From positions 124,001 to 188,000 of the forward strand of contig JAJDTL010000028.1 in NCBI GenBank assembly GCA_022827195.1: a DNA stretch of 64,000 nt. The letters are read 5' to 3'. The notes beneath the pieces are model-generated. The model searched no databases. It saw nothing but the letters and a program-made list of their open reading frames with translations, and had not been told where the DNA came from. The DNA comes from Caldilineaceae bacterium. GTDB lineage: Bacteria > Chloroflexota > Anaerolineae > Caldilineales > Caldilineaceae. This document shows, in pieces, positions 1,791 through 7,174 of this stretch; position 1 is the first letter of the stretch; the number at the start of each line of letters is the position of its first letter. The translations under genes and the position numbers were made by a program.

Positions 1791-2711
1791 ATGGAAGTCA
1801 CCAAAGCAGTCATCACCGCGGCCAGGCGCACGCAGCGAAATCTGCCGCTGCAGATGATCATCGACCGGGACGGCGTCGAAAAGTCGGTGCTGCGCATCCT
1901 TGTTGAGGAGGCGATCGACGCCGGCGTGGACGAGATCTGCGTCATCGTACACCCCGGGGATGAGACCGCCTACACCGCCGCAGTCGGTGAGCATGCTGGG
2001 CGCCTCCAGTTCGTGCAACAGGCTGAGCAGCTCGGCTACGCGCATGCGGTTTTGTGCGCGCGCAGTTTTGTCGGCAGCGAACCGTTCCTGCACCTGGTGG
2101 GGGACCACCTTTTTGTTCGGCCGAGCGGCGGGCGATGCACAGCGGACGTGGTCGAGGTTGCTCGTGCGCACGCGTGCTCCGTTTCCGCAGTGCAGGCGAC
2201 GCGCGAGACCCTACTGCCATATTTTGGCGCGGTAGGCGGGCACCGTCTGGCCGGCCAGACCGGCCTATACCAGGTCGAGACGGTGATCGAGAAGCCCACG
2301 CCCACCGAGGCGGAGCAACGGCTGGTGGCTTCCGGGCTGCGAGCCGGTCACTATCTCTGCTTTTTCGGCATCCACGTGCTCACTGCGAAGGTCATGGGGA
2401 TACTGGACGAGCTGCTGTCGCCTTCTCGTTCCGGTCCGAGCGCGGCCGCGACGCAGGATGGGACAGGAACGGTCGTCAAGCCGGAACCGGGACTATCGCT
2501 CTCTGCTGCGTTGCATATTCTCGCCCAACGTGAGCAGTTCCTGGCGGTTGAGCAGGAGGGCATGCGCCTTGATATCGGCGTCAAGTACGGTCTGCTCACC
2601 GCCCAAATTGCGCTGGCTTTGAACGGGCGGGACCGGGACGAGATGTTGACCCGGCTGCTGGACCTGCTGATGACCCGTTCGATGCAGGATGGAGAAAGTT
2701 TCCAGTTTTGA
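1791..2711 (+). CDS. GalU-like nucleotidyltransferase with degenerate active-site loop
   Basis: 306 residues that align with UTP-glucose-1-phosphate uridylyltransferases: KAVIT at residues 5-9, [16 protein letters not shown] (GalU usually has a close match), [10 protein letters not shown] and [12 protein letters not shown]. However, the signature nucleotide-binding loop, normally G-x-G-T-R, reads AARRTQR at residues 10-16, and the downstream P-K-E-M segment with its conserved Lys is replaced by IIDRDG. The fold is therefore recognisable but catalysis is doubtful. The next gene, 83 bp downstream on the same strand, encodes a kinase-pyrophosphorylase fusion. This protein may be a regulatory or structural partner of that enzyme (inference), or an enzyme with altered chemistry. 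Confidence 0.72.
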
Positions 2712-2794
2712 GTTTTTCATTTTCAGTTCGTCGTTTTGGGCTTTTGGCGGACTCGAATTCGGACGAAATCGGTAATTGGCAGATTTGAGACAAG

Positions 2795-5700
2795 ATGAGC
2801 ACGCTGGCAGGCATTATCACGGCAACTGACCAGGATAAGCGCAACCGCTCTCTTGAAGGGTTTGCCCGTTCGGCGTCGACTGAGGCGCTCTTACATGAGT
2901 GCGAGGCGTTGGACCGTCTGCGGCGGGAGAATGACAACCTGTATGAACGGGTGCGGGCGCTCTTATTTCTGCACGCCATCCATAGATTTCACCTCCCCGA
3001 CAAGCCCGGTTACGCCGCCCGCGGCATGATTCCCTTCGATGGCTACGAGGACCTGCTCAACCGCCGGTTTGAGGAGGCGATTGGGAGTTTCCTCAAGCTC
3101 CAGTCCCAGGCGGGCCCCAGCCAGGCCCTTTCGAGCGCGCTGGCTGCGGCGTACCGCCAGCTTGGCTTTCAGACACTGGCCGACCAGGTGAGGCGCAGCG
3201 TGCGTTCGCTGGCGGGCAATCAGTGGATGTTCCGTGTCGGCCATCCGAGCGACCATCCACTGCGTGTCGTCACGGGGTTGCGCCGTTCTCACAACAACGG
3301 TCTCTTCCCACTCTTGCGCGAAGCGACGCCCGTGCGGATGGACCTTACGCACAGCGGTTGGAGCGACATCTTCTTTCTGGGCATGGACTATCCCGAATGC
3401 GCCCGCGTGCTGAACGTCTCGATCGACCTGGGCGTGCACGGCATGGAGCAGGCCGAGGGCAGCGGGCCGCGGCCGCCTGTGGAGGGCTTCTTTCGGGTCA
3501 TCGACCGGCCCGTATTGCGCTTGGTCAGCGTCGATCTGGAGGCGAGCGCGGAGATCAGCAGTTTCGCCGAACTCTTCGACTTTGCCCGCGACCATCTCGG
3601 CCTGCTGAAGGCGGCCCTGATCGCAGCCGGAATCGTGCCGCCCGGCATGGAGGGCGCGTATCAGCCGCTCGCTGATCTGCTGGCCCAGATGGTCGGCAAC
3701 GGGCACGGCATCGAGCTTGTGAGCAAGGTGAACGGGATCCCGAAGGGGTCGAGGTTGGCGGTCTCCACCAGCCTGCTGGCTTGTCTCATAACGGTCTGTA
3801 TGCGGGCCACGGGCCAGGTGCGGTCGCTCACGGGTGGCCTCAGCGAAGAGGAGCGCCGGCTGGTGGCGGCGCGGGCGATCCTGGGGGAGTGGCTGGGCGG
3901 TTCAGGCGGCGGCTGGCAGGACTCAGGCGGCATCTGGCCGGGCGTAAAGCTGATCCGGGGGGAGTTGAGCGAGGAGGGGGACCCTGAGTTCGGCATCAGC
4001 AGAGGCAGACTTCTGCCCAGCCATCATCTTTTGGATCGCGACGAGGTCAGCGAAGAGACGCGGCAGGCGCTGCAGGCCAGTCTTGTGCTGGTGCACGGCG
4101 GCATGGCCCAGGACGTGGGGCCGATACTTGAGATGGTGACCGAAAAGTATCTGCTGCGCTCGGAAAGGGAGTGGGCAGGGCGCCGGCAGGCCGTCGGTAC
4201 GCTGGACGAGATACTGTCGCTGTTGAAGGCGGGGGACGTGGAAGCGATCGGCGCGGCGACGGAGCGCAACTTCAACGGACCGATTCAGACGATAATCCCC
4301 TGGGCCGGCAACCTTTACACCGACAGGCTGATCGAGCAGACGCGCGCGGCTTTCGGCGCAAACTTCTGGGGCTTCTGGATGTTGGGCGGGATGTCGGGCG
4401 GCGGCATGGGGTTCATCTTTGATCCTCGGCACAAGGCCGCCGGCATGGCCCGGCTGCACGAGATTATGCGCGACACAAAGAAGCGCATGGAGCGGGCGGT
4501 CCCGTTTGCCATGGGGCCGGTCGTGTATGACTTTGCGATCAACGAGCGTGGAACCTGGGCCGAACTGCAGGGCGAAGACAAGGCCCTGATGCCACCGGAC
4601 TACTACCGGTTGACGGTGCCGGATGTATTGCGGAGGGACCGGAGACAGCTATCCGCCGGTCAGCGCGCGGAACTTGACGCTTTCAGCGCGGACAGCCGCA
4701 CCGACCCGGCCCTGGTCGACGTCCTTCCCGCTCTCCTCCAACGCATGTTGCCGCAGAAGCAGGAGACGGGCGCGGACGGGGCTTCGCTGGCCGCGCTGCT
4801 GGAGGAAAATGCGTTTGACCGCAAGCAGCACGAGCAGATCCGCACCGACTTGCGCGGCGGGCGCATCGGCCTCGCCCTGAACCGGCTGCCGACGCGCACA
4901 CTGATCGAAGATGTCGACGCGTCAGAGATAGCCGGCGCCGGCACAGAATTGCCGGAGGGCATGCGCGCGGTGGGCGCGGCTGCACTCAGGGACGGGGAGG
5001 TCGCGGTCGTTACGCTGGCCGGAGGCGCGGGCAGCCGATGGAGCCAGGGGGCGGGCGTGGTCAAGGCGCTGAACCCGTTCGTGCGGTTGTCGGGACGTCA
5101 CCGCAGCTTCATTGAGATCCACATATCCAAGAGCAGACGCAGCAGCCGGCTCTGCGGCACGCCTGTGCCCCAGGTCTTCACGACCAGCTTCCTTACGCAC
5201 GGCGCAATCGCCGACGCGCTGGACGAGGCCGACCACTATGGCTATGCAGGGCCGCTCCGGCTTTCGCCGGGCCGCAGCATCGGTCTGCGCTTGGTGCCGA
5301 TGATGCGGGACCTGCGGTTCGCATGGGAGGAAACGTCCCGCCAGATCCTTGACGTGCAGGCACAGAAGGTGCAGGAGAGCCTGCACGGCGCGCTGATCGA
5401 ATGGGCGCGCGCCAGTGGCGAGGGCAGCGACTACGTGGACAACGTGCCCGCCCAATGTATACACCCGGTGGGCCACTGGTACGAGTTGCCGAACCTGCTG
5501 CGAAACGGCGTGCTGCGTCAGTTGTTGGAGGAGCGTCCCCAACTACAGTATCTGATGATGCACAACATCGACACAGTGGGCGCCGACGTCGACCCGGCGC
5601 TGCTGGGGCTGCACATCAACGGGCAAAGGACGATGACGGCGGAGGTGATCAGCCGGCAGCTGGAGGACCGCGGGGGCGGCCTGGCGCGCGTCAACGGCAG

Positions 5701-6127
5701 GCTGCGTCTGATAGAGGGGCTGGCCCTGCCGCGTGAGGAGATCGAGTTCCGGCTGACCTTTTACAACGCCAACACATTCTGGGTTACAATCGACCGCCTG
5801 CTGGCCGTGCTGGGGCTGGACCGCGCCTCGCTCGAAGACGAAGACGAGGTGGCTGAAGCGCTACGGCGCATGGCGGCCCGCATGCCCACCTACGTCACGC
5901 TGAAGGATGTGAAGAAGCGCTGGGGACGGGGCCAGGAGGACATTTTCCCTGTATGCCAGTTCGAAAAGTTGTGGGGAGATATGACAGCGTTGCCGGAGAT
6001 GGATTGCGGTTACGTGGTGGTGCCGCGGCGGCGCGGCCAGCAGCTCAAGGAAGTGGCCCAGCTCGACGGCTGGCTGCGGGACGGATCGGCGGACTTTGTG
6101 GAAGGGCTATGCGATTGGGCGGAATGA
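2795..6127 (+). CDS. GHMP (fucokinase-like) kinase fused to UDPGP-family sugar-1-P nucleotidyltransferase
   Basis: 1110 residues. Residues 1 to about 130 are helical and unrecognised. Residues about 170-600 resemble GHMP sugar kinases of the fucokinase type: DLTHSGWSD (183-191), a phosphate loop PKGSRLAVSTS (316-326), GGGWQDSGG (from 371, with the probable catalytic Asp376) and GGMSGGGMGF (531-540). Residues about 735-1080 resemble eukaryote-type UDP-sugar pyrophosphorylases: LAGGAGSR (741-748), Lys757, HNIDTVGAD with Asp926 as probable metal ligand, and a late YNANTFW. Such an enzyme would phosphorylate a free sugar and then make the nucleotide-sugar, a salvage route. The kinase loop is unusual: the family has GSGLGTSS-like glycines, two of which are Arg320 and Ala322 here. 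The substrate is unknown; fucose, arabinose or uronic acids are possible. Confidence 0.75.
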   Translation: MSTLAGIITATDQDKRNRSLEGFARSASTEALLHECEALDRLRRENDNLYERVRALLFLHAIHRFHLPDKPGYAARGMIPFDGYEDLLNRRFEEAIGSFLKLQSQAGPSQALSSALAAAYRQLGFQTLADQVRRSVRSLAGNQWMFRVGHPSDHPLRVVTGLRRSHNNGLFPLLREATPVRMDLTHSGWSDIFFLGMDYPECARVLNVSIDLGVHGMEQAEGSGPRPPVEGFFRVIDRPVLRLVSVDLEASAEISSFAELFDFARDHLGLLKAALIAAGIVPPGMEGAYQPLADLLAQMVGNGHGIELVSKVNGIPKGSRLAVSTSLLACLITVCMRATGQVRSLTGGLSEEERRLVAARAILGEWLGGSGGGWQDSGGIWPGVKLIRGELSEEGDPEFGISRGRLLPSHHLLDRDEVSEETRQALQASLVLVHGGMAQDVGPILEMVTEKYLLRSEREWAGRRQAVGTLDEILSLLKAGDVEAIGAATERNFNGPIQTIIPWAGNLYTDRLIEQTRAAFGANFWGFWMLGGMSGGGMGFIFDPRHKAAGMARLHEIMRDTKKRMERAVPFAMGPVVYDFAINERGTWAELQGEDKALMPPDYYRLTVPDVLRRDRRQLSAGQRAELDAFSADSRTDPALVDVLPALLQRMLPQKQETGADGASLAALLEENAFDRKQHEQIRTDLRGGRIGLALNRLPTRTLIEDVDASEIAGAGTELPEGMRAVGAAALRDGEVAVVTLAGGAGSRWSQGAGVVKALNPFVRLSGRHRSFIEIHISKSRRSSRLCGTPVPQVFTTSFLTHGAIADALDEADHYGYAGPLRLSPGRSIGLRLVPMMRDLRFAWEETSRQILDVQAQKVQESLHGALIEWARASGEGSDYVDNVPAQCIHPVGHWYELPNLLRNGVLRQLLEERPQLQYLMMHNIDTVGADVDPALLGLHINGQRTMTAEVISRQLEDRGGGLARVNGRLRLIEGLALPREEIEFRLTFYNANTFWVTIDRLLAVLGLDRASLEDEDEVAEALRRMAARMPTYVTLKDVKKRWGRGQEDIFPVCQFEKLWGDMTALPEMDCGYVVVPRRRGQQLKEVAQLDGWLRDGSADFVEGLCDWAE

Positions 6128-6142
6128 ACGGAGCAGTATGCC

Positions 6143-7174
6143 TCAGGCCAGGACCGGATTGGGCGCTTCGGGCAGATGCTGGTAGCTGGGGTCCTCTTTC
6201 TGCTTTTCGAGGATGGCGATGATCTCCTTCCATGAGGCCGCGAGGCCGACGGGGCTCGGCGGCAGATCGGCCTTGATCGCCTTGTGCAGCCTGCCCAATT
6301 TGTAACAGGGCACCGCCGCGTACATGTGATGCTCGATGTGGAAATTCATGTGCCAGTAGAGGAAGCGCACAAACGGGTTCAGGATTATGGTACGCGTGCA
6401 GAGGCGGTAGTCGGGGATGTTATCCATCAGGCCGACGTGCTGCGTGTTGTTGCAGAGGAAGAGCAGCCAGCCGCCATAGAAGGGCGCGAGCGTAACCAGG
6501 ACCGGCAACAGCCACAGGTCTAACGCCAGCAGGTAACTGAGCGCCAGCGAGACGACGGTCAGAAGGAGATGGCCGGCGAGGAGGATGCGCGCCCAATTGA
6601 ACAGACGGCTGCGCCTTTCCTCCGCGTCCGGCGGGAAAAGCATGTTCTCCCACTCGCCTTCCAGCTGCCCAAACGAGAGCCGAACCACCCCTTTGACGCG
6701 CTGGAAGAGCCCCCACGGGTTGACGACAGCGGCCTTCAGAAAACTGTTCAACGTGATTTCGACCGGCAGCACGACTTCGAGGTCATCCGGAGGATGGAGC
6801 GTGTATTTGTGATGTTCCTGATGGCTTGTCCAGAAATGGACATGGTTGTACCACCCCAAGAAACTGAAGACCCGCAGAAAGAACTCGTTGAGGAATTTGG
6901 AGCGGAAGACCGAACGGTGACACAGCTCATGGAAGCCGTTCAGCAGAAAGGCATAGAATGTGCCGTGGAGGAAGAGGACAGGGACCAGCGCCCACCAGAG
7001 TTCCGCCCGGACTGCAAACCAGGCCGCCGCGCCGGTCAACGCCAGCAGACCGAGGTGGCCCAGCGTCTGTGCCAGGCCGAGCAGATCGCTGCGTTGATTC
7101 AGTTCGGCCAGGGTCGTGCGATCGATCGGCGATCTGTACCAGTTGATCTTTGATTGCACCGGTCCGTATGTCAT
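6143..7174 (-). CDS. Membrane fatty acid desaturase
   Basis: 343-residue integral membrane di-iron desaturase that introduces double bonds into acyl chains. All three histidine boxes are present: HELCH (82-86), HQEHH (118-122) and HIEHH (279-283), interspersed with hydrophobic segments at about 32-52, 61-79 and 180-220. The start at 7174 is chosen over the longer frame because AAAGGAGGG lies 6 nt upstream and because a good promoter at 7260-7288 would put the longer N-terminus upstream of transcription. It converges with the kinase fusion, with only 15 bp between the stops. Regiospecificity cannot be read from sequence. Confidence 0.88.
   Translation of the reverse strand: MTYGPVQSKINWYRSPIDRTTLAELNQRSDLLGLAQTLGHLGLLALTGAAAWFAVRAELWWALVPVLFLHGTFYAFLLNGFHELCHRSVFRSKFLNEFFLRVFSFLGWYNHVHFWTSHQEHHKYTLHPPDDLEVVLPVEITLNSFLKAAVVNPWGLFQRVKGVVRLSFGQLEGEWENMLFPPDAEERRSRLFNWARILLAGHLLLTVVSLALSYLLALDLWLLPVLVTLAPFYGGWLLFLCNNTQHVGLMDNIPDYRLCTRTIILNPFVRFLYWHMNFHIEHHMYAAVPCYKLGRLHKAIKADLPPSPVGLAASWKEIIAILEKQKEDPSYQHLPEAPNPVLA

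Follow-up and report, generated by a model that had tools for sequence, protein, structure and literature searches.

A GalU-like protein of 306 residues, encoded at positions 1791 to 2711 of the forward strand in the 64,000-nucleotide stretch of Caldilineaceae DNA analyzed here (the window), lacks the lysine-bearing segment of its nucleotide loop and lies directly upstream of a gene fusing a GHMP kinase to a UDPGP-type pyrophosphorylase. Our favored reading, held with moderate confidence, is that it is a dedicated pseudo-nucleotidyltransferase subunit that holds a UDP-sugar and stabilizes or feedback-controls the fusion, in the manner of GMPPA and GMPPB. The sequence-only reading of this DNA had described a GalU-like protein with an intact frame, a loop reading AARRTQR, and a lost lysine region. 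That description was borne out, with the refinement that the loop appears to have been remodeled.

A shortened nucleotide loop in a GalU fold

The open reading frame starts with ATG and has no internal stops. Its product scores above the cutoff of PF00483 (NTP_transferase; 33.6 bits against 21.2, 3.9e-8) and far under the curated cutoff of TIGR01099 (GalU, UTP-glucose-1-phosphate uridylyltransferase; 82.6 bits against 326.8). With a 25-row profile, the nearest solved structure is Bacillus subtilis YngB (7o2n; 3.1e-40). An AlphaFold model made from 25 relatives has a mean pLDDT of 89.2 and a pTM of 0.86; its best PDB match, among UDP-glucose pyrophosphorylases, is 9yfi (Z = 31.4, rmsd 2.1 Å, 238 residues), and it matches YngB with a Z of 28.4. 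On this model, the GalU fold is predicted to be retained intact.

What differs is the loop. The A-G-x-G-T-R of GalU is represented by AARRTQR at residues 10 to 16 (1818 to 1838). In the profile alignment to YngB, an eight-residue gap follows directly on R-x-L-P, at the junction of Pro19 and Leu20 (1845 to 1850), so that the stretch with the loop lysine is gone and the protein lacks a GXG(T/S)R loop with its downstream lysine. The loop lysine is generally regarded as catalytic in the nucleotidyltransferase superfamily. Of 60 sampled family members from several phyla, counted after near-copies had been removed, 48 carry the deletion and 12 keep the loop; Singulisphaera acidiphila has a homologue of the loop-kept kind. 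The lysine column is deleted in all 48 members of the loop-deleted clade, while the loop-kept branch has lysine there in 10 of 12, and G-x-G-x-R with its arginine in 8 of 12 (the arginine is lost in 4). Ordinary GalU controls carried the strict pattern GxG[TS]R..P.{6}K in 30/30 loci read. The question of whether orthologues share the altered loop, raised by the sequence-only reading, is thus answered in the affirmative.

We call the loop remodeled rather than merely destroyed because the arginine of GTR is retained in the window protein and in 36 of the 48 loop-deleted members (12 have lost it) and because two glutamines are nearly fixed, Gln15 at the threonine position in 46/48 and Gln21, just past the deletion (1851 to 1853), in 48/48. 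The shortened loop follows the pattern A-x-x-x-Q-R-x-L-P-L-Q. With conserved residues of its own, it may serve a new chemistry, which had been proposed as an alternative to a regulatory role.

By these comparisons, the deletion is an old, fixed change. Sequencing error and recent decay are ruled out by the loops common to relatives, together with the purifying selection described below: a Caldilineaceae MAG relative (L031) that is 93% identical to the window protein has the same loop type, as do the remaining Caldilineaceae relatives. The aligned near-copies that are family members repeat the loop types of the members counted. Orthologues with a restored G-x-G-T-R loop, which were to have spoken for an error or recent decay, do exist, but they form the separate loop-kept branch and neither explanation is indicated.

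A tree of the GalU-like proteins was built without the loop columns, by a quick search with SH-aLRT support only. It unites the 48 loop-deleted members (SH-aLRT 99), with the loop-kept members outside them and loop-bearing sister families and GalU further out; on this tree, the deletion would have occurred once. The fusion tree, from an equally quick search and as rooted, does not place the loop-deleted members in one clade, and the single-deletion reading is therefore drawn from the GalU-like tree. Long branches in the trees are L101, L119, and L121. Left out of the tree and of the 60-member counts were 21 near-copies (L014, L016, L028, L033, L035 to L039, L042, L044 to L046, L055, L061, L068, L071, L074, L076, L078, and L124), the repeats L001, L098, L103, and L115, and the fragments L018 and L081, the latter with an N terminus that runs off its contig. 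Two open frames, L019 40-2079 (680 residues) and L022 85-2079 (665 residues), contain a sister-family GalU-like domain with an intact loop.

Linkage to a kinase-pyrophosphorylase fusion

The partner, at 2795 to 6127 on the same strand, has 1,110 residues and is assigned by profiles, alignments, and a model to an N-terminal helical region, a fucokinase-like GHMP kinase (about residues 175 to 590; 3317 to 4564), and a UDPGP-type pyrophosphorylase (about residues 730 to 1110; 4982 to 6127) with GSRW and VVK motifs. It scores 51.2 bits with UDPGP profile PF01704, above the cutoff of 22, and 62.4 bits (1.7e-17) with the FKP profile NF009948, over the kinase part only and under the 721-bit cutoff. 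The kinase part matches the structures of FKP (9iip, TMt 0.76) and the heptokinase WcbL (4usk, TMt 0.80). The model of the whole fusion (mean pLDDT 73.6, with low confidence at active-site loops) was used for domain assignment only.

By alignment, the fusion retains its pyrophosphorylase motifs and most of its kinase motifs. The catalytic residues reported for FKP, Glu751, Gln761, and Asp762 (PMC11982464), align with Glu365, Gln375, and Asp376, which are invariant in 26/26 sequences, as are Arg748, Lys757, His894, and Asp926 of the UDPGP part. The exception is the Gly-rich loop of the kinase (3737 to 3769), which reads IPKGSRLAVST in place of the FKP sequence IPAGSGLGTSS. The GHMP signature PxGSGLGTSS is replaced by PKGSRLAVST in the sampled fusions, with the metal-site serine kept; all of them have the full motif, departing from it by no more than a Lys-to-Arg or a Leu-to-Phe substitution (in L119 it lies outside the second piece of the split gene), and Arg320, Ala322, and Val323 are present in 26/26. 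Phosphate-donor binding by the kinase may differ as a result of this altered loop. In L119 itself (2155-6843, planctomycete G600), the fusion gene has a diverged linker and is interrupted by a stop codon close to a stretch of N, either an assembly error or a real split.

The two genes of the window are separated by 83 bases (2712 to 2794), where many relatives overlap instead. Across 81 family loci, the fusion lies directly downstream on the same strand in every case (at most 77 places, since four loci are second copies). Spacing, with starts estimated from the HMM, varies between an overlap of 10 bases and a gap of 416, and many pairs overlap or nearly touch. An 82nd match, L013, also exceeds the score limit but belongs to a sister family and has no fusion beside it. 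Genome contigs contributed 52 loci with a family member, all 52 with the fusion adjoining, from Caldilineaceae, Anaerolineae, Planctomycetota, Acidobacteria, Armatimonadetes, Chthonomonadaceae, Bacteroidota, Ignavibacteriae, Chitinivibrionales, and Hydrogenedentota.

Co-occurrence gives the same picture. Among 400 Chloroflexota genomes, which hold ten more orthologues (E up to 3.6e-76), the full fusion is found in 11 and a family member in the same 11; in a twelfth genome, G301, there is a fragment covering 100 residues of the fusion. Both the co-occurrence and the linkage elsewhere on which the sequence-only reading had staked its pairing of the two genes thus hold. The fusion is also present in 19/392 genomes of Planctomycetota (the phylum of Singulisphaera) and in 4/297 from the phylum of an Acidobacteriales MAG. 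In these two sets, the search for the GalU-like protein was confined to the fusion-bearing genomes; 13 of the 19 and all 4 have it. Of the six planctomycete genomes without it, five have visible flanks from which it is absent, and in the sixth, G697, the locus is truncated by the end of its contig. Because the fusion persists in such genomes, the partner is dispensable and not obligatory for it.

Protein distances of the two genes are correlated across 27 loci (r = 0.90), a value reached in 0/2,000 Mantel permutations. In the loop-deleted clade, the mean distance is 0.451 for the GalU-like protein versus 0.368 for the fusion, and in the loop-kept clade 0.387 versus 0.405. Since the older loop-kept branch is also linked to the fusion, the linkage predates the deletion.

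We considered a larger conserved operon, but no third gene recurs broadly across phyla; two flank clusters (F1 and F2) are, judged by position, open reading frames at the GalU-like gene's own place, in its own or an overlapping frame. Upstream of the pair in the window are open reading frames at 155 to 1018 and 1223 to 1645; a xylose-isomerase-like TIM-barrel protein (PF01261) is found there, and the upstream frame on the opposite strand is presumably OsmC-like. Elsewhere, an NDP-sugar epimerase lies downstream of the pair in L062 (6246-7253), and L059 and L063 have downstream genes that cluster with this epimerase gene; a glycosyltransferase and Wzy_C lie near the pair in L054 (3978-6778), and a glycosyltransferase is found in L080 (12116-13474); the remaining loci have unrelated flanks. 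The neighbors in these few clades hint, but no more than that, at a use of the product in surface glycans.

The linker between the kinase and UDPGP parts was examined as a candidate docking site for the partner and rejected. It is short or diverged in the partner-less L117, L118, L119, and L121, yet full in the partner-less L120, and it is also short in L122 and L099, where the partner is present. A short linker therefore occurs both with and without the partner, and a docking site is not indicated.

The window's genome has a separate UDPGP-family pyrophosphorylase (G000:C51:27704-28921, E = 2.6e-124) and five other NTP_transferase matches, and a search at E up to 1e-50 found no GalU in it. 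With the former present and GalU not found, UDP-glucose supply probably rests on a eukaryote-type enzyme.

The retained pocket and the proposed role of the partner

For YngB, the proposed uridine contacts are Ala13, Gly14, Lys28, Glu29, Gln105, and Gly110, with Asp133 assigned to Mg, Asp134, Gly172, Glu191, and Val204 to glucose, and Lys192 to the diphosphate, in the account given in PMC7961091. The equivalents of Gln105, Gly110, Asp133, Gly172, Glu191, and Lys192 are unchanged in 48/48 loop-deleted and 12/12 loop-kept members, and invariant in 62/62 alignment rows. In the window protein, they include Asp105 at the Mg site (YngB Asp133), followed by His106 where GalU has Asp (2103 to 2108), and the invariant sugar-phosphate site Glu167-Lys168-Pro169 (2289 to 2297), which contains the counterparts of Glu191 and Lys192. 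Lys28 and Glu29 have been deleted, every family member has His at the Asp134 position, and the Val204 position varies. Ligand binding is for this reason less sure than the six kept residues would suggest.

The GalU-like protein is under purifying selection. NG86 estimates of dN/dS are 0.032 to 0.245 in eight loop-deleted pairs and 0.025 to 0.034 in two loop-kept pairs, with the L041-L043 pair left out of the counts and dS above 1 to be read as near saturation, and a 21-row alignment has 34 invariant columns.

A non-catalytic sensing or stabilizing subunit fits this combination, because the nucleotide-sugar pocket is kept and the loop is not. We imagine that the GHMP kinase part of the fusion phosphorylates a sugar at C1 and that the UDPGP part couples the sugar-1-phosphate to an NTP, probably UTP. 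The GalU-like protein, with its uracil, metal, and sugar-phosphate pocket but without the lysine-bearing segment, would bind a nucleotide sugar without making it and, through contact with the fusion, would stabilize it or exert feedback control. From this point of view, the GalU-like protein would have been paired with the fusion while its loop was still intact; one branch would then have lost the lysine segment, settled on a short loop of its own, and remained under constraint beside the same partner, and some planctomycete lineages would have come to carry the fusion alone. The pair did not begin with a dead partner, since the older members keep the arginine and the lysine. We infer both the inactivity of the GalU-like protein and its regulatory role toward the fusion from this pattern.

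The main rival is that the protein is still an enzyme. The A-x-x-x-Q-R-x-L-P-L-Q loop would then carry out nucleotidyl transfer or another nucleotide-sugar reaction, following the fusion's own step in a pathway of two proteins, and the near-fixation of Gln15 and Gln21, the arginine kept in 36/48, the invariant metal Asp and sugar-phosphate Glu-Lys, and the strong purifying selection are what one would expect of it. However, the loop lysine that all 30 GalU controls keep is gone from all 48 loop-deleted members, the arginine is missing in 12/48 of these and in 4/12 of the loop-kept branch, the partner already carries a conserved pyrophosphorylase, and some genomes drop the GalU-like protein altogether. 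We regard a remodeled enzyme as unlikely, roughly one chance among several. Slightly less probable still is a plain structural or folding partner that stabilizes the large fusion without binding a ligand or regulating it. The strict adjacency and co-inheritance would suit such a role, as would the fact that the fusion manages without the protein in some lineages; the ligand-pocket residues invariant in 62/62 rows would be needless for a pure scaffold. That the gene is decaying and kept by chance of linkage, as its loop loss, its larger mean distance compared with the fusion among loop-deleted members (0.451 versus 0.368), indicating more rapid change,, and its loss in some planctomycetes might suggest, is highly improbable given the dN/dS of the eight loop-deleted pairs, the open frames in distant phyla, and the 34 invariant columns.

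Known pairs and implications

The closest parallel to a pseudo-nucleotidyltransferase subunit is GMPPA, which is reported to bind GDP-mannose and inhibit GMPPB (PMC11228364). In both cases a nucleotidyltransferase-fold protein is tied to one pyrophosphorylase, here by gene adjacency in 81/81 loci and with the non-catalytic role being a prediction, and the fold matches of our model include a chain of the GMPPA/GMPPB structure 7d72 (Z = 23.3, rmsd 4.5, 246 aligned). The family may be of the GMPPA type, in which catalytic loop residues are lost and the product pocket is kept: the lysine is deleted in 48/48 and the six pocket residues are kept in 60/60, yet two uridine contacts are deleted and one Asp has become His. 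Unlike GMPPB, the partner here is not a close paralogue; it joins a UDPGP-type domain to a GHMP kinase.

GalF is a second GalU-like protein that has lost residues of GXG(T/S)R, namely the Thr and Arg, and the matching GalU double mutant is described as having a Vmax three orders lower (PMC4643126). GalF, however, differs by substitutions, where our protein has an eight-residue deletion, and it closely resembles GalU. We know of no link between GalF and a kinase-pyrophosphorylase fusion.

Two fusions can also be compared. FKP, the Bacteroides L-fucokinase/GDP-fucose pyrophosphorylase, matches the kinase part, with catalytic Asp and Glu aligned and kept. Its pyrophosphorylase is N terminal and its kinase C terminal, according to PMC11982464, whereas here the kinase comes first, the pyrophosphorylase is of the UDPGP type, the Gly-rich loop of the kinase has a changed sequence, and a GalU-like partner accompanies the fusion. 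The zebrafish glucuronokinase DrGKUP, like our pair, combines a GHMP sugar kinase with a nucleotidyltransferase domain that is short and of bacterial type; its pyrophosphorylase activity is reported to be low, and near-inactivity of its putative pyrophosphorylase domain is discussed, in PMC3938481. Unlike our pair, it is one polypeptide, in animals, and the UDPGP domain is absent.

No paper on the GalU-like/fusion pair was found among those listed from the PMC open-licence full text, the scope of our search, and PMC12732313 gave no passage mentioning planctomycetes, Chloroflexi, or GHMP. Pseudo-pyrophosphorylase partners are already known, but the papers listed describe none that is GalU-like and linked in several phyla to a GHMP-kinase/UDPGP fusion. 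More speculatively, the pair could be an undescribed bacterial two-protein nucleotide-sugar synthase. A single ancient deletion of eight residues would have turned an active pyrophosphorylase into a product sensor with the GalU fold, which would gate the GHMP-kinase/UDPGP fusion; the fusion, whose phosphate-binding loop is unusual, would make an activated sugar, living branches preserving the steps from intact to loop-deleted to lost partner. We offer this tentatively.

If the regulatory reading is right, the pair would be a bacterial counterpart of GMPPA/GMPPB, set between two distant branches of the pyrophosphorylase fold. The coexistence of intact, deleted, and missing partner states would make the change from enzyme to regulator directly testable. 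It would also point to a new route of sugar activation common to Chloroflexota, Planctomycetota, Acidobacteriota, and others.
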